Shown: in pieces, positions 2,760 to 35,631 of the stretch
How the letters are laid out: the number at the start of each line of letters is the position of its first letter
Numbering within the stretch: the first letter of the stretch is position 1
Assembly: GCA_021792615.1 (NCBI GenBank)
Contig: JAJYUJ010000022.1
Coordinates: 1 to 43,805 of the forward strand
Direction: 5' to 3'
Source of the DNA: a bacterium
GTDB taxonomy: Bacteria > JAMCPX01
Length of the DNA stretch: 43,805 nt
The notes under the pieces: generated by a model
What the model saw: only the letters and a program-made list of their open reading frames with translations
What the model was told of the DNA's origin: nothing
The model's database searches: none
Position numbers and translations under genes: made by a program

Positions 2760-2829
2760 AAGGCAACAGGGCCTGCCCTTGAAATGATAAATGATACCAT
2801 TGTTTCCTTCTGCAATCTTTATCTTCATA

Positions 2830-3242
2830 CAGTTGCTTTTCCAGACCGCCGGCGGCCTTGCTCACCGATGAATAGCTTAATCAAAAATGTTTTCCTAAGA
2901 AATGGGAACCGGTTTTGATCTTGACATCGGATAAATGATTTCTACTTCCTTTTAAATCTTTTTATGAGATCGTTTTTTATTAAAATGAAGTGTGAGACCT
3001 CATCCTAACCTTCACTAAAAGGGGAAGGAATTGCACACATCCCTGCGCCCTGCTGACAGAAAGAATTTTTAAACCCCCTTTATCCCCCTTATCAGGGGGA
3101 GACTCATAAGGCTGTCCCAGAAGCCAGCCGTGCGGAGATGATAATTTTATATTCGGCAGACAAGGGGCACTCGGCAGAGAAAAATTAAACGCAGGGAAAT
3201 GCAGAAAACCCAAAAAAATGGGTGTCTGTCTCTAATTAGACC
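2830..3242. repeat. Large intergenic direct repeat, copy 1
   Basis: About 413 bp, nearly identical to 3974-4412 in the same orientation. It differs by scattered substitutions and lacks a ~26 bp segment present in copy 2 near 4150-4175. It contains the palindrome TCCCCCT-TATC-AGGGGGA (3083-3100). No long convincing reading frame is conserved in it. The flanking stretch 2760-2829 holds nothing recognisable. Confidence 0.85.
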
Positions 3243-3267
3243 TACTTCCCAGGATAAAATGCCTATC

Positions 3268-3297
3268 TTGACTTCTGTCAATGTGCGGCATTATAAT
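3268..3297 (+). promoter_or_regulatory. hicBA promoter with small palindrome
   Basis: TTGACT (3268-3273), an 18-bp spacer and perfect TATAAT (3292-3297). TTGAC-TTCT-GTCAA (3268-3281) forms a palindrome over the -35 element, a possible autoregulatory operator. The start of hicB lies 20 bp further, preceded by AGGAGG. Confidence 0.65.
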
Positions 3298-3316
3298 GAA
3301 TTAAACAGGAGGCAAC

Positions 3317-3583
3317 ATGGTACCAATAGAATATGACATTATCATTTTTCAAGAAGATGAAACCTACGTAGCATATTGTCCCGAACTCGATATTTCAAGC
3401 TGTGGCAATTCGGTAGAACATGCAGAAAATATGCTTAAAACAGCGGTAAGATTGTTCCTTGAAGAAGCTGAAAAGATGGGTACTGTTGAAGAGATCCTTG
3501 AAGAATCGAGATATAAGAAAAATGAGTCAGGTAAATGGTTGCCACCCAAGATAGTGAGAACCGAATTGGTAAGCACGCTATAA
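3317..3583 (+). CDS. hicB: HicB-family antitoxin
   Basis: 88 aa. Residues 5-60 (YDIIIFQEDETYVAYCPELD, then SCG and a helix ending in a LFLEEAEKMG-like stretch) show the HicB partial RNase H-like fold that binds and neutralises HicA. The start has a strong AGGAGG at 3307-3312. The stop is one base before hicA, so the pair is co-translated. Order is antitoxin first, the reverse of E. coli hicAB but common in HicBA pairs. The C-terminus is short with no obvious ribbon-helix-helix or HTH domain, so whether this HicB itself binds the palindromic promoter is open. Confidence 0.8.
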   Translation: MVPIEYDIIIFQEDETYVAYCPELDISSCGNSVEHAENMLKTAVRLFLEEAEKMGTVEEILEESRYKKNESGKWLPPKIVRTELVSTL

Positions 3584-3584
3584 G

Positions 3585-3815
3585 ATGCCCAGAATTGTTC
3601 CTATTCCTGCAATCAAGTTACGGAGAGTATTTGAAAAAGCAGGTTTTAGCTGTGTAAGAATAGAAGGAGATCATTTCGTATACACAAAAAAGGGCATTCC
3701 AAGACCGGTTGTTATTCCAGACTGGAAAGAATTACCGGTATTTATAATTAAAAATAATCTGAGAACAGCTGGTATATCAAGAGAAGAATATTTTTCATTG
3801 TTAGATCAAATTTAG
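3585..3815 (+). CDS. hicA: HicA-family mRNA interferase toxin
   Basis: 76 aa, a typical HicA size. The fold pattern is helix (KLRRVFEKAGF), then strands with GDHFVYTKKG, where His30 is the expected catalytic residue of the family, then PVVIPDWKEL and a C-terminal helix NNLRTAGISREEYFSLL. The family has a double-stranded-RNA-binding-like fold and cleaves mRNA, halting translation until HicB is restored. Start ATG follows the hicB stop by one base. The pair lies between two copies of a ~0.42 kb repeat, which may have helped move or maintain it. Confidence 0.8.
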   Translation: MPRIVPIPAIKLRRVFEKAGFSCVRIEGDHFVYTKKGIPRPVVIPDWKELPVFIIKNNLRTAGISREEYFSLLDQI

Positions 3816-3840
3816 AAGCACGCAGCGTCAGCCCTTGAAA

Positions 3841-3973
3841 GGTTGTTGAAAAACTCGGTTTACTGTCATTACGAACGCGGGCACACAGCGGAGCTGGGTC
3901 GAGCAATCTCAGTTTTTATAAATCAATAAGTTATAGATTGCTTCGTCGCAAAATCGCTCCTCGCAATGGCTTG
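3841..3973. repeat. Degenerate inverted intergenic repeat
   Basis: AGCAATCT (3902-3909) and AGATTGCT (3935-3942) are inverted arms. The outer parts (a TCATTACGAACG block near 3867, and CGTCGC...CCTCGCAATGG around 3945-3970) resemble the dispersed unit with CATTGCGAGGAGC and GCGACGAAGCAATCT seen in many bacterial genomes. No gene is present between hicA and the next repeat. Confidence 0.5.
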
Positions 3974-4412
3974 CAGTGGCTTTTCCAGACTGCCGGCGGC
4001 CTTGCTCACCGATGAATAGCTTAATCCAAAATGTTTTCCTAAGAAATGGGAACCGGTTTTGATCTTGACATCGGATAAATGGTTTCTAATTCCTTTTAAA
4101 TCTTTTTATGAGATCGTTTTTTATTAAAATGAAATGTGAGACCTCATCCGCACCCTTCCCTGTCGGGTGGGTACCCGTTCCCCTAAAAAGGGGAAGGAAT
4201 TGCACACATCCCTGCGCCCTGCTGACAGAAAGAAATTTTAAAACCCCCTTTATCCCCCTTATCAGGGGGAGACTCATAAGGCTGTCCCAGAAGCCTGCCC
4301 TGCGGAGATGACAATTTTATATTCGGCAGACAAGGGGCACTCGGCAGAGAAAAATTAAACGCAGGGAAATGCAGAAAACCCAAGAAAATGGGTGTCTGTT
4401 TCTAATTAGACC
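3974..4412. repeat. Large intergenic direct repeat, copy 2
   Basis: Second copy of the 2830-3242 repeat, about 439 bp, with an extra ~26 bp containing CCCTGTCGGGTGGGTACCC. It ends four bases before the stop codon of the abiEii-like gene and contains the same TCCCCCT-TATC-AGGGGGA palindrome (4253-4270). The 600 bp between hicA and abiEii consist of this and the preceding degenerate repeat. Confidence 0.85.
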
Positions 4413-29081: not shown

Positions 29082-29366
29082 TCATTTTACCCGCCATTTT
29101 GCTATGCCCGCGAAAGTCAGTGCGAGTACAAAAGCCAGGAGTGACACGAGGAGCGATGCGGCCGCAGAGGACATCAGTACGGCAAGGTACTGGTATATAC
29201 CCGTCAGGAAAAAGCCCGCAGCGGCAAGGACCAGAACAGAGGCAACCCCGACAAATGCAAGCGCCCATCCCAGATTCATTACGGCTTTTTTCAATATTTT
29301 TCCTTCTGTTTCCAGCAAACGCAGAAAGGCTGTCACGATATCAAGGAGCGTCGTTAGTATCTGCAT
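29082..29366 (-). CDS. Small membrane protein, phage-holin-superfamily-like
   Basis: 94 aa. An amphipathic N-terminal segment (ILTTLLDIVTAFLRLLETEG) precedes two strongly hydrophobic helices (WALAFVGVASVLVLAAAGFF and a second around 62-88). This matches the DUF1469/holin-superfamily-like proteins often paired with YqjD/DUF883 proteins in proteobacteria. The reading frame overlaps the upstream gene by 26 bp, so the two are coupled. Despite the name, the family is usually linked to envelope stress and not to lysis. No phage genes lie nearby. Confidence 0.6.
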   Translation of the reverse strand: MQILTTLLDIVTAFLRLLETEGKILKKAVMNLGWALAFVGVASVLVLAAAGFFLTGIYQYLAVLMSSAAASLLVSLLAFVLALTFAGIAKWRVK

Positions 29367-29706
29367 GTTTGCTTTCCTGATACCACAGTTTGGCGATTAT
29401 ATAGCCGAGTCCGAATGCGGCCATAATACTCACCAGCGGGTACTTCCCGACTTCAGCTGCAAGGTCGCTAACCACCTTTTCACCCTGGATCTTCGATGAG
29501 TTGAACTTGTGAAACAGGTCAGACCATACACTATGGCCTTCTTCGCCACGGGTTGAACCTTCCTCCCCGGCCGATGCATGCAGCTGTTCATAGGAAACCC
29601 CGGCTGCTTTCTTCGCGCCGGCAGAGAGACCGGCAATCTCCTGACGTAGATTGGCAATCTGGGCCTTCAGTGCATCCAGTTCGTTTTCATGTGTTTTGTT
29701 CGTCAT
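29341..29706 (-). CDS. DUF883/ElaB/YqjD-like membrane-anchored protein
   Basis: 121 aa. A coiled-coil-prone N-terminus (ENELDALKAQIANLRQEIAG) is followed by a polar middle and one C-terminal hydrophobic segment (YPLVSIMAAFGLGYIIAKLW). The layout is that of ElaB/YqjD proteins, inner-membrane tail-anchored proteins that bind ribosomes in stationary phase in E. coli. Alternatively a generic tail-anchored stress protein. It lies at the end of the AI-2E transporter gene (4-bp overlap) and before the holin-like gene. Confidence 0.6.
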   Translation of the reverse strand: MTNKTHENELDALKAQIANLRQEIAGLSAGAKKAAGVSYEQLHASAGEEGSTRGEEGHSVWSDLFHKFNSSKIQGEKVVSDLAAEVGKYPLVSIMAAFGLGYIIAKLWYQESKHADTNDAP

Positions 29707-30827
29707 ATTCGTTTCTCCTTATGTGTATTTTCCCTCTGTGTTTTGGTATCGGGATCGTTATCTTTTTTCGATATTTGTGGAATACTTTCAGCGGCCGATT
29801 CTCGTCCGAGTAATACAGCGATCCATTGCGTGCTTTTATTGTTCTCGCATGCAAACTTCAGGGTCATGGTTAACGGTACGCACAGAATCATCCCGATCGA
29901 ACCAAGCATGCTTCCCCAAAAGACCAATGAGAGAAAGACAACCAGCGTGGACAGTCCGAGCCTCCACCCCATAAGCCTCGTTTCAATCACATTGCCAAGT
30001 ACGAGATCAACAGCCAGATATCCTGCAGCCGCGAGCGCTGCAGTGCCTGCTCCGAGTTGGATAAGGGTGAGAAGGATAGCTGGGACGGCGGCGATAATAC
30101 CGCCGATATTGGGTACGTAGTGCAGCAAAAAGGCGATGAAGCCCCAAAGGACGGGAAATTTCACACCAAGGATGGACAGCAGCAGCCATATCAGAATCCC
30201 CGTAGCCAGGCTTATAATCGTCTTGATTACCATATAGCGCTCGATATTCCCGACAAACCCCGTGAACTCGGGAAATGTCTGCTGCGGGTCGCCAAGAACA
30301 GCGCGGAGTTTGACAGGAAAGCTTGGGGCCTCAAACAGGATGAAGGCTACGGTGAGCAAAATAAGAATAATGTTCGAAAGCGCAGCACCCAACCCGGAAA
30401 GCAAGCGGGTGGTCAGGCTCATCACAGCACCCGGATTGATAAATCCGAGCAGAACCTTGCTCATACCCTGGATCCTGATACCCTTGGTTGCCAAAAAAGA
30501 CTGGAATTCTGGCACTTGTTCCTGTAAACGTGCCTGATAAGCAGGCAATTCCGTGTAAAACCTGTTGATGGACACACCTACGCTTGCACCGACAATCAAC
30601 AGGACGATGATCATACCCGTCAGCACGATGAGCACCGAAACAATGGAAGGGATGCGTTTGCGCTCAAGCCATAGTACAGGTGGCGTCCCGATGATAGCAA
30701 AAAAAACCGCTATAAAAAAAGACACCAGAACTGTTTGTGCCTGATTGATACCCCAGATGATGATCGCGAGCGCTGCCACTATGATGAGGAAACGCATTAC
30801 CCGGTCAGATTTACTCTGATCCTTCAT
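29703..30827 (-). CDS. AI-2E family (PerM/YdiK-like) transporter
   Basis: 374 aa from the ATG at 30827, chosen for the GAGGAGG upstream; the open frame extends 99 codons further but this lies over other genes. Hydrophobic helices include FLIIVAALAIIIWGI, VLVSFFIAVFFAIIGTPPVL, SIVSVLIVLTGMIIVLLIVG and a C-terminal cluster with LLHYVPNIGGIIAAVPAILL and VLGNVIETRLMGWRLGLSTL, the family signature region. AI-2E proteins export small molecules or ions; TqsA exports AI-2, while others act as Na+/H+ antiporters, so the substrate is unknown. It overlaps the DUF883-like gene and an upstream 18-codon leader by four bases each. Confidence 0.85.
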   Translation of the reverse strand: MKDQSKSDRVMRFLIIVAALAIIIWGINQAQTVLVSFFIAVFFAIIGTPPVLWLERKRIPSIVSVLIVLTGMIIVLLIVGASVGVSINRFYTELPAYQARLQEQVPEFQSFLATKGIRIQGMSKVLLGFINPGAVMSLTTRLLSGLGAALSNIILILLTVAFILFEAPSFPVKLRAVLGDPQQTFPEFTGFVGNIERYMVIKTIISLATGILIWLLLSILGVKFPVLWGFIAFLLHYVPNIGGIIAAVPAILLTLIQLGAGTAALAAAGYLAVDLVLGNVIETRLMGWRLGLSTLVVFLSLVFWGSMLGSIGMILCVPLTMTLKFACENNKSTQWIAVLLGRESAAESIPQISKKDNDPDTKTQRENTHKEKRI

Positions 30828-30916: not shown

Positions 30917-31138
30917 TCAGCCTTTTTTCTTTCCCACGACCAGCAATACAATACCGCCCACGAGCGCAATACCGCCCACGATCGGCGGCAGAGGAAGCGT
31001 TTTCGTCTTCTCCGCAGTCATCTGGATAGGACCGATATTCACGACCTTCTCTCTGGTCGTGTACGTGATACCCTGATACGTGAGTATGACGATCCCGATC
31101 ACGACAAGGATGATTCCTGTCCACGTGTATGTCTTCAT
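30917..31138 (-). CDS. DUF3185-like small membrane protein
   Basis: 73 aa with two hydrophobic helices (IILVVIGIVILTYQGI and IVGGIALVGGIVLLVVG) and a central TREKVVNIGPIQMTAEKTKT stretch that is characteristic of DUF3185. The ribosome binding site is GAAGGAG. The family is found in delta-proteobacteria and others beside stress genes; no function is established to my knowledge. It lies in the same-strand series of small membrane proteins. Confidence 0.75.
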   Translation of the reverse strand: MKTYTWTGIILVVIGIVILTYQGITYTTREKVVNIGPIQMTAEKTKTLPLPPIVGGIALVGGIVLLVVGKKKG

Positions 31139-31186: not shown

Positions 31187-31336
31187 TTACAAAACTTTTC
31201 GTCCCTGAATGACCCTGACCAGAACCACGATAATAGCAATTACCAGAAGGATGTGAATCAACCCACCCATGGTGTAACCAGTCAAGAACCCCAGCAACCA
31301 CAGAACTATCAGTATTACAGCGATCGTCCACAACAT
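31187..31336 (-). CDS. lmo0937-family small membrane protein
   Basis: 49 aa from the ATG at 31336, preceded by AAGGAAG; an upstream ATG at 31372 in frame would add 12 polar residues not typical of the family. MLWTIAVILIVLWLLGFLTG, then TMGGLIHILLVIAIIVVLVR, is the classic two-helix pattern of these ~50-aa proteins, which are widespread and often stress-induced. A half-site TGTAAG of the nearby promoter palindrome lies at 31376-31381, about 40 bp upstream. Confidence 0.75.
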   Translation of the reverse strand: MLWTIAVILIVLWLLGFLTGYTMGGLIHILLVIAIIVVLVRVIQGRKVL

Positions 31337-31406: not shown

Positions 31407-32237
31407 CTACGGGGCGGTAACCGCATTATTGTTCAAAGTGACCGCGGTCTGTGCCAACAGTCTGCCGTTTACTGATGCGCCCTTATTGAGCGTGATCCCG
31501 GTCTGCGACAGTATCACACCCTCCATGTGTGCGGTCGTTCCGATGGCTACGACACCTGCGGACTGCCAGAAAATGTTCTGGGGCAATGCACCACCGGCCA
31601 AGATCACCTTCGCTCCGGAAGCCACGGTAATACCTTTTGCAATCTGGAAGATCCAAACATCATTCGGTCCGCCGTTGAGTGTGACATTCGTTGGGATTGA
31701 AACTCCTGTACTCCATTTGTAGGTTGCAGGGGAAAGGGTCATCCCGCCGATATTTCCGGCACCAAGTTCGGTATAATCAGGAGTTCGTCCTGCGGCATCG
31801 GTGTACGCAGTCAGCATATCGCTTACAGCCGTGGTCAGGTTGGAAGGGGTCGGAGGCGCATAGTTAGCTGCGTATACTTTTCCGGTCACCTGAGACGATG
31901 TCGCAAATACACCGGTACTGTCCAATACCAATGCCCATCCGGTTAAGAAACTCGCGGCCGCCGGACTCACTCCGATATCTCCGGTTATAGCAGAGGTTGG
32001 AACGGTTGAGATCCCTGTTTTAGCCAGAATCACATAATTGCCGGCGGTACCAAGAACCACCGGTGCAGGGCCTTTCCCTATGCCGCCTACTCCTGTGCCG
32101 GAGCCTGGGACGGTTGGTGAAGCAACAGAGGATGAACTGCTTGAACTCCCGCATCCCGTAATTAAAAACACAGCCAGCAATGATGCGATAAGCCACAGAT
32201 TAGCATACCCTTTGCATTTGTTTTTTGATTTGTTCAT
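31407..32237 (-). CDS. Ice-binding-like (DUF3494) lipoprotein
   Basis: 276 aa from the ATG at 32237, which has AAGGAGG upstream; a further in-frame ATG at 32294 lacks this. The signal ends in ITGC (Cys29), then a Ser-rich linker (SSSSSS). Residues about 57-276 form the DUF3494 ice-binding domain: LGTAGNYVILAKTGISTVPT, ITGDIGVSPAAASF, YKWSTGVSIPTNVTLNGG, PNDVWIFQIAKGITVASGAK, and IFWQSAGVVAIGTTAHMEGV followed by ILSQTGITL. Family members bind ice or act as adhesins; lipid anchoring here would place it on the outer membrane or periplasmic face. Its promoter carries the duplicated palindromic module (32310-32402), linking it to the response regulator and RpoH. Confidence 0.85.
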   Translation of the reverse strand: MNKSKNKCKGYANLWLIASLLAVFLITGCGSSSSSSSVASPTVPGSGTGVGGIGKGPAPVVLGTAGNYVILAKTGISTVPTSAITGDIGVSPAAASFLTGWALVLDSTGVFATSSQVTGKVYAANYAPPTPSNLTTAVSDMLTAYTDAAGRTPDYTELGAGNIGGMTLSPATYKWSTGVSIPTNVTLNGGPNDVWIFQIAKGITVASGAKVILAGGALPQNIFWQSAGVVAIGTTAHMEGVILSQTGITLNKGASVNGRLLAQTAVTLNNNAVTAP

Positions 32238-32309
32238 ATATGTTTCCTCCTTGAAAACAGTTAGCTCTTCGTTGCAAACCTGAATAGACTGCAACTCTTT
32301 TTGTTGTTA

Positions 32310-32402
32310 TTTTATTACAGGGAGATCAAGAAGAACATCGGAAGGTTTCCAAATATATTGTAGGAATATACCCATGTTTTTGTAAGCAGTTGTCTTACAG
32401 GT
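32310..32402 (-). promoter_or_regulatory. Duplicated promoter module, copy A (ice-binding gene)
   Basis: About 93 bp, almost identical to 33263-33355 without indels. It contains the exact inverted repeat TGTAAG-N7-CTTACA (32381-32399). On the minus strand the arm CTTACA serves as -35, with an 18-bp spacer to TACAAT (-10, 32357-32362). The start codon of the ice-binding gene is about 120 bp downstream of this -10. The operator overlapping -35 suits activation or repression by a NarL/FixJ-type regulator. Confidence 0.75.
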
Positions 32403-32417
32403 AAGTACCGGATTACT

Positions 32418-33227
32418 TTAATCTACCAGAGGGGTAATAGAATATTTGAGTTTAGACAGGGCCTTTTGCTCAAGCTGTCGCACACGTTCTTTGGATATAC
32501 TGTATTTCTCGCCGATCGCCTGCAGAGAAAACGGGGTATCCGACATGACCCTGTGCTTTATAATGTACTGTTCCCTTTCCGGAAGGGTTTTTACCATGCT
32601 GTTCACTGTTTGTTTTAAAACCGATGCCTCTTCCAACCTGCTAATACTTTCTTCGGTGTTCTCGCGATCATCAACAAGCTGGTCAAGGTGCGACTCCCTG
32701 CTCTCTTCGTCCAGGGGAATATCCAGGGAAACATCTCGTAATCTGAGCCTGTTTTCAAAGTCTTTTGCCTTTTTCTCTGTATTTCTTTCATCATCCAGCA
32801 TGTCCGGGTTGGGTTCCGGCTGAACTTTGTTCAGAGAATAGAACAGCTTCCTTTGCAGTTGCGTGGTACCTATCTTTACGAGACTCCATGTTTTCATGAT
32901 GAAGTTCTGTATGTAAGCCCTTATCCACCACACCGCATAAGAGATTAACCGGAACCCCTTATATGGATCGAATTTCTTTACAGCCATCATGATCCCCACG
33001 TTGCCTTCCTGAATCAAGTCCATCAGTTTCACATTGTAATGCCTGTACTCCAGAGCTATCTTTACGACAAACCTCAAATTGGATGTCACCAGCGTGTGGG
33101 CTGCGTGGACATCTTTTTTCTGATAGTATATTATTGCCAGTTTCTTTTCCTCCTGAGGAGTTAAAAGAGGGTATTTATCTATCTGGGCCAGGTATTTTGT
33201 AATGCTATCATCCACTACCGTTTGCAT
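32418..33227 (-). CDS. rpoH: RNA polymerase sigma-32 factor (RpoH type)
   Basis: 269 aa, start at ATG 33227, six bases after AAGGAG; an ATG two codons earlier touches the ribosome binding site. Region 2 is intact (LMDLIQEGNVGIMMAVKKFD, YAVWWIRAYIQNFI). QRKLFYSLNK matches the RpoH box (QRKLFFNLRK), which separates heat-shock sigma factors from RpoD/RpoS. Region 4 ends with GEKYSISKERVRQLEQKALS. It directs polymerase to heat-shock-type promoters. Its gene follows the response regulator gene by 144 bp, with promoter-module copy B between, and lies upstream of the ice-binding gene. Confidence 0.85.
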   Translation of the reverse strand: MQTVVDDSITKYLAQIDKYPLLTPQEEKKLAIIYYQKKDVHAAHTLVTSNLRFVVKIALEYRHYNVKLMDLIQEGNVGIMMAVKKFDPYKGFRLISYAVWWIRAYIQNFIMKTWSLVKIGTTQLQRKLFYSLNKVQPEPNPDMLDDERNTEKKAKDFENRLRLRDVSLDIPLDEESRESHLDQLVDDRENTEESISRLEEASVLKQTVNSMVKTLPEREQYIIKHRVMSDTPFSLQAIGEKYSISKERVRQLEQKALSKLKYSITPLVD

Positions 33228-33262
33228 AGTCATCTCCTTCTTTCCATTTTTACACTGTTTAA

Positions 33263-33355
33263 TTTTATCGCAGGGAGATCAAGAAGAACATCGGAAGGTT
33301 TCCAAATATATTGTAGGAACATACTCATGTTTTTGTAAGCAGTTGTCCTACAGGT
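33263..33355 (-). promoter_or_regulatory. Duplicated promoter module, copy B (rpoH)
   Basis: Second copy of the 32310-32402 module. The palindrome is TGTAAG-N7-CCTACA (33334-33352), with one arm changed. TACAAT is conserved (33310-33315), about 80 bp before the rpoH start. It lies 16 bp downstream of the response-regulator stop codon. Confidence 0.7.
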
Positions 33356-33370
33356 CAGCAGAAGATTGAT

Positions 33371-34003
33371 TCAATCTACAAGGTGGTTCTGTATGGCATA
33401 GCTGGTCAATTCAGCATTGTTTTTCAGGTGCATTTTTTCCAATATACGGCTTCTGTATGTGCTGATGGTCTTGACACTCAAAAACAGTATCCCGGCAACT
33501 TCGCCTATTGTCTTACCCGAGGCAATCATACATAAAACCTCATACTCCCTGTCGGAGAGCTGTTCATGAAGCTCCTTTTCCTTATCGACATCAAGATTGA
33601 GGGCCAATATTTCAGCAAATGTAGGGCTGACATATTTTCTGCCCTCTGCCACAATCCGTATTGCTGATACCAGTTCCTCAGGTGCGCTGTCCTTTGTCAT
33701 ATACCCCGCTGCTCCTGCCCGCAAGACCCGTATCGCGTATTGATCTTCAGGATACATGCTCAGTATGAGAACGGGGAGTTTGGGGCGTTCGGTCTTTATT
33801 TCCTTTAAAGCATCGAGACCGCTCTTGCCGGGCATGGCTATGTCCAGGACAACCACGGAATAATCGTTTTTTCTGACCTTATCGAGCACTTCTATGGCGC
33901 TGGCGGCTTCATCGACTACCGCAATGTCGGAGACTCCCGAAAGAATCTTCTTCAGCCCTATGCGAACCACAGAATGATCATCACCTATGAGCACATTAAT
34001 CAT
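33371..34003 (-). CDS. LuxR/NarL-family response regulator, GacA/UvrY-like
   Basis: 210 aa. Receiver domain: acidic pocket DD8-9, phospho-acceptor Asp54 in VVLDIAMPGKSG, and the conserved Lys in GYMTKDSAP. The C-terminal LuxR HTH (SDREYEVLCMIASGKTIGEV, then LSVKTISTYRSRILEKM) resembles the GacA/UvrY recognition helix (SPKTVNSYRYRM). It should bind the TGTAAG-type palindromes beside rpoH and upstream of the ice-binding gene; this is an inference. The kinase gene ends 71 bp upstream on the same strand; a TGTAAGACA half-site lies at 34071-34079. Confidence 0.9.
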   Translation of the reverse strand: MINVLIGDDHSVVRIGLKKILSGVSDIAVVDEAASAIEVLDKVRKNDYSVVVLDIAMPGKSGLDALKEIKTERPKLPVLILSMYPEDQYAIRVLRAGAAGYMTKDSAPEELVSAIRIVAEGRKYVSPTFAEILALNLDVDKEKELHEQLSDREYEVLCMIASGKTIGEVAGILFLSVKTISTYRSRILEKMHLKNNAELTSYAIQNHLVD

Positions 34004-34074
34004 AATTCTATCATAACAGACAATACGTGGATAAGTCTATCAGCATAACAATGATTCTTCTATCGGTTTTTGTC

Positions 34075-35415
34075 TTACAAGAAAACCTTTGAAGGAGCAT
34101 CAGCGGTAAATTTCTTATCGTTGGGCGTATGGCGTTTCTGAAGTGGAATGCTTACAACAATCGAGGTCCCTTTACCATGAATCCCTTTGATCTCGAATTG
34201 ACCGTCCAAATAATTCACCCGTTCTCTTATGCCCATCAGGCCAAAGCTTCTGTGCCTGGTAAGCTGCTTTTGTGTTATCCCTTTGCCGTTATCTCTGAAA
34301 TATAAAGCAATTTCCTTTTTCTTTTTTTCTAAGGCGCATCGGACTTTTGTTGCTTGTGCATGACGGGCAACATTGGTAAGCAGCTCCTGGAGGATTCGGA
34401 AAATCGCTATGGTGACCTCCTGATCAAGAATTATCCCTTTCGGTTTTATGAAAACAGAGCATTGAATTCCTGTCCGTTTCTCAAATTCGGTCATTTGCCA
34501 TTCAATTGCCGCTCCTATGCCAAGGTGATCAAGTAATGAGGGTCTCAAGTCCGTGCAAATTCTTTTTATTGTTTCGATACTCCCGTCGATCTGTTTCATC
34601 ATGCTTTCTATTTTTTCCATGATCGGTTTGTGGGCTTTGTTCAGTCTGCCGATCAATGACAAATCGATTTTCAAAGCTGTCAGTTCCTGCCCCATTCCAT
34701 CATGCAGCTCGCGTGCTAATCTCGCCCTCTCCTCTTCCCTTACCGATCGCAGGTGCCAGAAAAGGTCACGCAACTGTTTATTGGCTCTAATTAATTCTTT
34801 CTCTGCTTTCGTTCGTTCCTGTATTTCCCGCTTCAGATGTTCGGTTGTTCCTTGCAATTCAGCGGTCCGTTGTTTCACGCGAAGCTCCAATTCATTGCGT
34901 GCTTTTTCGAGCTCCTTTTCTACACGTTTGCGCAGTGTGATGTTGCGGACGTTGCACTGGATAATCTTCTCATGATCGACAAGGTAGACATTACTGACAA
35001 ATTCGACATCAATGGGACGGCCGTCTTTTGTCTCAATCGGTAAATGTTCGTACCGCACATACCCTTTGGTTTGCAATTCTGAAAACCGGAGCTTCGATGC
35101 TGCAATGTCTTTGAAAGGACCGATTTCCCAGAGTTTCTTTTTCAGAAAATACTGATGTGAATATCCCAGCATCTTTATCAGGAATGGGTTAACATCGAGG
35201 ATTTGCCCTGTATCTGCATCGAGAAGTAATATCCCGTCTTGGGCGGTTTCGAAGAGCCTGCGGTAACGGGTTTCCGATACCTGCAATGCCTCCTCTGCCT
35301 TTTTGCGTTTTGTTGATTCTGCTACCAGCTCCTCAATGCGATGATGCAGCGTGGCTGATTCATTTATGGTTGTATATTGCTCTTTTGCTCTTTTGCTCTT
35401 TTGCTTTGTCTTCAT
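34075..35415 (-). CDS. Cytoplasmic PAS sensor histidine kinase (HisKA_3 type)
   Basis: 446 aa with no transmembrane segment. A PAS domain spans about 45-165 (YRRLFETAQDGILLLDADTG). A long coiled coil (165-230, VEKELEKARNELELRVKQRT) leads to the HisKA_3 dimerisation domain with the phosphorylatable His238 in RLARELHDGMGQELTALK. The HATPase_c domain has LQELLTNVARHA (N box), FRDNGKGI (G1) and GLMGIRERV (G2). It is the likely partner of the downstream LuxR-type regulator, as NarX/DegS-type kinases pair with NarL-type regulators. The PAS ligand is unknown; no haem- or FAD-specific motif is evident. Confidence 0.9.
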   Translation of the reverse strand: MKTKQKSKRAKEQYTTINESATLHHRIEELVAESTKRKKAEEALQVSETRYRRLFETAQDGILLLDADTGQILDVNPFLIKMLGYSHQYFLKKKLWEIGPFKDIAASKLRFSELQTKGYVRYEHLPIETKDGRPIDVEFVSNVYLVDHEKIIQCNVRNITLRKRVEKELEKARNELELRVKQRTAELQGTTEHLKREIQERTKAEKELIRANKQLRDLFWHLRSVREEERARLARELHDGMGQELTALKIDLSLIGRLNKAHKPIMEKIESMMKQIDGSIETIKRICTDLRPSLLDHLGIGAAIEWQMTEFEKRTGIQCSVFIKPKGIILDQEVTIAIFRILQELLTNVARHAQATKVRCALEKKKKEIALYFRDNGKGITQKQLTRHRSFGLMGIRERVNYLDGQFEIKGIHGKGTSIVVSIPLQKRHTPNDKKFTADAPSKVFL

Positions 35416-35547: not shown

Positions 35548-35631
35548 TGCCGGGGAAGGGAATTGAACCCTTATGTCCCGGAGGACGGGGGATTTTGAGT
35601 CCCCTGCGTCTACCAGTTCCGCCACCCCGGC
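35548..35631 (-). tRNA. tRNA-Leu (CAA anticodon)
   Basis: Class II tRNA of 84 nt. Acceptor stem GCCGGGG (complement of 35625-35631) pairs with CCCCGGC (complement of 35549-35555), A discriminator at 35548. Anticodon loop CTCAAAA holds CAA; a long variable arm (CGTCCTCCGGGACA) and the T loop TTCAATT are clear. CCA is not encoded. Decodes UUG. Confidence 0.95.

Follow-up and report, generated by a model that had tools for sequence, protein, structure and literature searches.

A duplicated promoter-like module with a UvrY-type box upstream of a second rpoH gene and an ice-binding-type lipoprotein operon

The window analyzed here, a 43,805-nt stretch of bacterial DNA from genome G000, carries one short block of sequence twice, once upstream of a gene for an RpoH-type sigma factor and once upstream of a gene for an ice-binding lipoprotein, both on the minus strand. 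This raised the question of how a single block came to precede two such genes, and whether the response regulator encoded next to it might control both.

The locus and its duplicated module

In the locus, the minus-strand genes follow one another in the order histidine kinase, response regulator, rpoH2, lipoprotein, DUF5670 protein, and small membrane protein. The kinase (34075..35415; Pfam PAS, HisKA_3, and HATPase_c) is the putative partner of the regulator, which is of the NarL/UvrY type (33371..34003; Response_reg and GerE). The gene rpoH2 (32418..33233) encodes a second RpoH-type sigma factor, scoring above the cut-off of NCBIfam NF005143. It is followed by the ice-binding-type (DUF3494) lipoprotein (31407..32237; Pfam Ice_binding, 1.5e-73) and by two probable operon members, the DUF5670 small membrane protein (31187..31336) and a small membrane protein with weak DUF308/DUF202/DUF3185-like matches (30917..31138). 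Next on the minus strand (29082-30827) come genes for an AI-2E-family transporter and two small proteins, one of 121 aa with no match in Pfam and one of 94 aa that matches Holin-X weakly; they may form the end of the lipoprotein operon.

The block is part of a direct repeat of 121 nt (32309-32429 and 33262-33382; 88% identity, no indels), with a core of 97 nt by BLAST (94%, no indels). Copy 1 (33262..33382, minus strand) comprises the last codons of the regulator, module A, and the rpoH2 leader, while copy 2 (32309..32429, minus strand) comprises the end of rpoH2, module A, and the lipoprotein leader. Module A itself, taken from the dyad to GATAAAAT (91-92 nt), differs at 5 of 91 compared positions between the two copies. 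The duplicated promoter module of about 93 bp without indels that had been claimed in the original prediction was therefore recovered by both BLAST and module alignment. The dyads claimed for it were also found, namely TGTAAG-N7-CTTACA at 32381-32399 and TGTAAG-N7-CCTACA at 33334-33352 on the plus strand; read on the minus strand, these are the boxes TGTAAGACAACTGCTTACA of copy 2 (32381..32399) and TGTAGGACAACTGCTTACA of copy 1 (33334..33352).

Each module is laid out on the minus strand as box, CTTACA, 18 nt, TACAAT, and leader. An independent, simple consensus scan chose CTTACA-18-TACAAT at both modules on that strand (9/12), placing the putative promoter of rpoH2 at 33310..33339 and that of the lipoprotein operon at 32357..32386. 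Thus, the earlier reading of the right arm as a -35 element, 18 bp from TACAAT, agrees with the predicted promoters. BLAST of the whole G000 assembly (2.54 Mb, 77 contigs, 99.55% complete) returned these two copies of module A and no third. Separately, long direct repeats of 179-181 nt (96-97% identity, about 1.15 kb apart) lie at 2830-4412 of the window and are unrelated to module A.

The block could also act as RNA, through a hairpin at its 5' end (GGAAACCUUCC) and a stretch of pyrimidines able to pair with the Shine-Dalgarno region of rpoH2 in the manner of an RNA thermometer. A six-pair helix is present in 93% of cells, and the leader is predicted to pair with the rpoH2 Shine-Dalgarno region. 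However, no pair was changed on both sides, so that covariation was lacking, and folding was no better than that of shuffled sequences (z 0.41). Moreover, Rfam gave no match in the module, only a tRNA being above threshold, and the leader of the ice-binding protein has no equivalent Shine-Dalgarno sequestration. Accordingly, we consider a role as RNA improbable.

Origin of rpoH2 and module copies in congeners

In G003, a congener, the kinase and regulator genes are followed by the module and the ice-binding lipoprotein, with no rpoH in between. The kinase-regulator region is 84.5% identical in the two genomes. On aligning the window with G003, two blocks were obtained, and their overlap was exactly the 121-nt repeat (G003:C68 5918-6038). 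This points to the gain of rpoH and one module copy in G000; it is less likely that they were lost in G003. Accordingly, a diverged second rpoH appears to have been inserted in G000 with duplication of the module. The repeat begins within the last codons of the regulator, and the C-terminal VD and stop are common to RpoH2 (...PLVD) and the regulator (...HLVD), whereas the family's other RpoH proteins have C termini such as ...VPAIAS. With the insertion and duplication, RpoH2 thus ends in the last codons of the regulator.

Such exact flanking of the inserted rpoH2, with one end of the repeat inside the regulator's last codons, would also be expected of a recombination or insertion scar without a regulatory role. 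We regard this as extremely improbable, since the block is conserved in two other genomes between different genes, always in promoter position and facing a gene.

The sigma factor gene of the window is an extra one: the ortholog of the chromosomal rpoH (G000:C33:14488-15294) was present in all nine searched genomes of the phylum. In the searched set, the phylum comprises only these nine genomes and a single family, and it is thus a sparsely sampled lineage. The chromosomal rpoH and rpoH2 are 82% identical. Compared with all orthologs of the phylum, rpoH2 shows synonymous differences near saturation (pS 0.73-0.98) and little amino-acid change (pN 0.10-0.15), so that it is an old or foreign paralogue that kept its protein constraint and came under the module only much later. 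The sigma recognition regions of RpoH2, VWWIRAYIQNFIMKTW and SKERVRQLEQKAL, are the same as in RpoH1. The protein reaches the NCBIfam sigma-32 model NF005143 (273.3 bits; cut-off 241) and falls short of the proteobacterial equivalog TIGR02392 (284.7 versus 323.1).

Heat-shock sigma factors often feed back, and one rpoH lies directly behind a module; both points would favor a module read by RpoH itself, with rpoH2 autoregulated. Sigma-32-type promoters have the form CTTGAA / CCCCAT, and TACAAT with an 18-bp spacer is not of this type. Moreover, most module copies drive genes without rpoH nearby, and this reading is considered very improbable. A sigma-32-type motif was sought near five HSP20 genes of the genus and none was found, so that no comparison motif was obtained.

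In total, seven copies of module A were found in three genomes of one genus: two in G000, one in G003, and four in G004. Together with a pairwise divergence of 5-19% over the six copies compared, this excludes a chance origin. In the case of G004, two copies lie on contig C216, one before a DUF5670 - small protein - Usp group and one before an ice-binding protein; a third (C40) precedes a 48-aa lipoprotein, and the fourth (C151) precedes a Big_5 lipoprotein whose signal peptide is of the ice-binding-protein type. A near-identical promoter thus stands before non-homologous genes within one genome, with two genes in G000 and four contexts in G004, as in propagated promoters. Three of the G004 modules are accompanied by remnants of the regulator cassette: the 3' end of the regulator on C216, an internal piece of it on C40, and on C151 the regulator promoter joined to the module. 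At the last site (G004:C151 807-994, L132), the regulator promoter and module A are fused and the regulator gene is gone.

An intact regulator or kinase gene was not found in G004, an assembly 87% complete, only remnants lying beside the modules. In two of its modules the arms are worn (CGTAAG/ATTACA and CGTAAG/CTTACG), as would be compatible with either loss of the regulator or simple drift. Module A was absent from the congeners G001 and G002 (assemblies 80-82% complete), and an exact pattern scan of approximately 85,000 species genomes returned it only in public records matching the G003 and G004 contigs. Between genomes, the module diverged by 13-15%, compared with 29-33% of synonymous sites in flanking genes. 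Furthermore, dS between G000 and G004 was 0.38 for the ice-binding gene and 1.32 for rpoH1, a difference that points to movement of the cassette from species to species within the genus.

In the window, similarity to G003 ends at about 35445, as though the cassette had entered beside the tRNA-Leu (CAA) gene at 35548-35631 (minus strand), which immediately precedes the kinase gene; the tRNA-Leu end was not found a second time in the window. In G003, an integron-cassette-type protein (VCH_CASS14; 2819-3163, L057) lies upstream of the kinase.

A box shared by two different promoters

The promoter of the response regulator, promoter B (TAGACT-18-TATGAT; 34010..34039, minus strand), was located by the consensus scan, which thus predicts promoters with 18-bp spacers at the regulator, rpoH2, and the lipoprotein. 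Promoter B is unlike module A except for TGTAAGACAA, which is followed by a looser right half. The resulting box, TGTAAGACAAAAACCGATA (34061..34079, minus strand), overlaps the stop codon of the kinase. Promoter B with TGTAAGACAA also occurs elsewhere: it precedes the regulator in G003, and G004 has it upstream of bacterioferritin (C259) and of a gene group with a DUF2934 member (C277). In the window, in G003, and at both G004 sites, its -35 and -10 elements are always 18 bp apart.

The UvrY site of E. coli csrC was mapped by ChIP-exo, and the sites upstream of csrB and csrC were located by DNase I footprinting (PMC4682653). The sequence TGTGAGACATTGCCGATA was located upstream of csrC in the MG1655 record, and TGTAAGACAAAAACCGATA agrees with it at 14 of 15 positions outside a 3- or 4-nt center, with one extra base. 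A UvrY-type box with at most one mismatch was found in promoter B and in both module A copies of the window, compared with 4 of 4000 Markov-shuffled 100-mers. The idea of a GacA box had guided the choice of templates, and the csrC template was selected only once its resemblance had been noticed; this frequency therefore serves as a guide and not as a clean P value.

The bare palindrome behaved differently. Exact TGTAAG-N6-8-YTTACA occurs in three places in G000, and TGTARG-N7-CTTACA with one mismatch allowed was at the level of the reversed-pattern control in G000, G003, and G004. Genome-wide enrichment of TGTAAG-N7-CTTACA, whose absence the original prediction had named as refuting its link to the regulator, was thus not obtained. 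TGTARGACAA was not enriched in the approximately one-third of G000 scanned; a further TGTAAGACAA in that part (G000:C33, about 29265) points away from the adjoining gene and is in line with the chance rate.

These counts bear on the principal alternative, in which the module would be a sigma-70 promoter, constitutive or under some other control, that was copied by recombination, and the palindrome and neighboring regulator would have nothing to do with its control. Besides the control-level palindrome, this explanation is favored by the arms, which within module A are no better conserved than the spacer or the rest of the module, and by G004, which keeps four modules though its regulator is seemingly lost. 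On the other hand, TGTAAGACAA recurs in the otherwise unrelated promoter of the regulator and upstream of bacterioferritin, and the match to a mapped UvrY site is close. We therefore judge a regulator-independent promoter to be unlikely, although it is the most serious of the alternatives.

Two further candidates concerned single elements. A sigma-B-like GGGTAT in one module copy was set aside, since it is not conserved in the others. In the literature, nothing was found on an EvgA-type half-site that would bear on reading TTCCTACAA, over the -10, as a third half-site.

As for the regulator, its best NCBIfam match is NF007018 (UvrY/SirA/GacA), but its 181.8 bits miss the equivalog cut-off of 280, E. 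coli UvrY itself scoring 450.9. It is identical to E. coli UvrY at 77 of 210 residues, belongs to the same NarL subfamily, and has the same KT-TYR-R recognition helix. The half-site TGTRAGA is likewise shared with BarA-UvrY/GacS-GacA (PMC4682653), and the box of the regulator's own promoter is nearly identical to the csrC site. Judged from this match, binding of the regulator to TGTRAGA-type half-sites is plausible.

In other respects the systems differ. The GacA/UvrY box, as at E. coli csrB and csrC, is TGTAAG-N6-CTTACA (PMC4682653), whereas the spacer is N7 in every copy here, and the N6 box with up to two mismatches was not found in the window. The kinase consists of PAS, HisKA_3, and HATPase only, without the receiver or Hpt domains of a tripartite BarA-type hybrid kinase. 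By sequence, the boxes lie near -40 or -67, compared with about -160 to -183 in BarA-UvrY, and the putative targets are structural and sigma-factor genes controlled directly instead of Csr sRNAs. In published work, the Csr RNA pathway is regarded as the principal task of UvrY, and BarA-UvrY as characteristic of Gammaproteobacteria (PMC4682653). No CsrA gene was found in G000 (99.55% complete), G003, or G004 by a search in which 3 of 14 controls gave a signal. Homologues of the regulator in other lineages (G009, 56%; G020, 46%) have no comparable box beside them.

Consequently, the regulator is UvrY-like and not a member by the curated cut-off. With that score, a kinase unlike BarA, no CsrA found, and an N7 spacer, the system may function as a GacA box does, yet should not be classed as Gac/Rsm. 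The proposed GacA-like box and regulator were thus supported as regards type and best family match, and not as regards the cut-off, spacer, and Csr pathway. The compact regulon was supported, as a small set of stress genes stands behind the box when the congener copies and the regulator's own promoter are included. Most of this support came from evidence beyond that behind the original prediction, namely TGTAAGACAA in the otherwise different promoter of the regulator and before other stress genes of a congener. A GacA/UvrY-like regulator may plausibly act directly on a small set of stress genes.

A proposed model and comparable systems

The duplication, the insertion, the copies before other stress genes of a congener, and the box common to two different promoters are observed. 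In the model that we favor, the repeat would be a complete portable stress promoter (module A with box, weak -35, -10, and early leader), whose usual place would be just downstream of the UvrY-like regulator, driving the ice-binding-type lipoprotein operon. Insertion of rpoH2 at that place with a module copy would have left rpoH2 and the lipoprotein operon each with the promoter. The phosphorylated regulator would bind TGTARGACAA(N3)CYKAYA, with the box center at about -40 in module A, beside or over the -35, if TACAAT is the -10, and further upstream, at about -67, in promoter B. The difference between these distances, approximately 27 bp, does not correspond to an integral number of helical turns. 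The regulator would activate itself in a positive loop together with rpoH2, the surface-protein operon, and membrane stress proteins. As the promoter-reading regions of RpoH2 are those of the housekeeping RpoH, the kinase would thereby supply additional sigma-32 to the ordinary heat-shock regulon.

Taken as a whole, with binding, activation, start sites, and signal inferred, this model is considered moderately probable. Its main weak point is G004, in which the boxes are recognizable in the module and promoter-B copies though only remnants of the regulator were found (87% complete). From the sequences, one switch that resembles, and does not equal, GacA/UvrY plausibly stands before several stress genes, that of a spare heat-shock sigma factor among them. 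More tentatively, a UvrY-like regulator without Csr may enlarge its regulon by copying the regulator with its downstream promoter, as a cassette, to sites before new genes and then losing the extra regulators, so that the regulator gene would itself seed the promoters and even a second sigma factor would be recruited in this way. If so, stepwise regulon expansion would be visible through its intermediates: beside the copied promoter, the regulator is whole in some, half-deleted in others, and elsewhere cut down to a few codons. A UvrY-type box would also be placed in a lineage that lacks the Csr RNA pathway, and a sensor kinase would be linked to the heat-shock regulon via a spare sigma factor.

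The arrangement had been thought to be without a described case. This was incorrect for rpoH, as CenR of the Rhodobacter sphaeroides CenKR system directly activates rpoHI (PMC9275681). Both systems have a two-component regulator that directly, here putatively, activates rpoH and envelope genes. Unlike the present locus, CenKR has an OmpR-family regulator and a TGA-N8-TGA direct repeat, and it lacks a promoter module that is shared or copied.

Putative mobile promoters and promoter propagation have likewise been described (Matus-Garcia 2012 and van Passel 2014, as cited in PMC8049555). As far as that account goes, the likeness lies in a near-identical short promoter before non-homologous genes in one genome, and the difference in that the mobile promoter is a free element there, whereas the copies here adjoin remnants of regulator genes. 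Control of rpoH by a response regulator and propagated promoters are therefore known; what is new is their combination and the visible regulator remnants beside the copied promoters. On account of these remnants, the promoter seems to have been carried with, or shed from, a regulator-promoter cassette and not to have spread as a free element.
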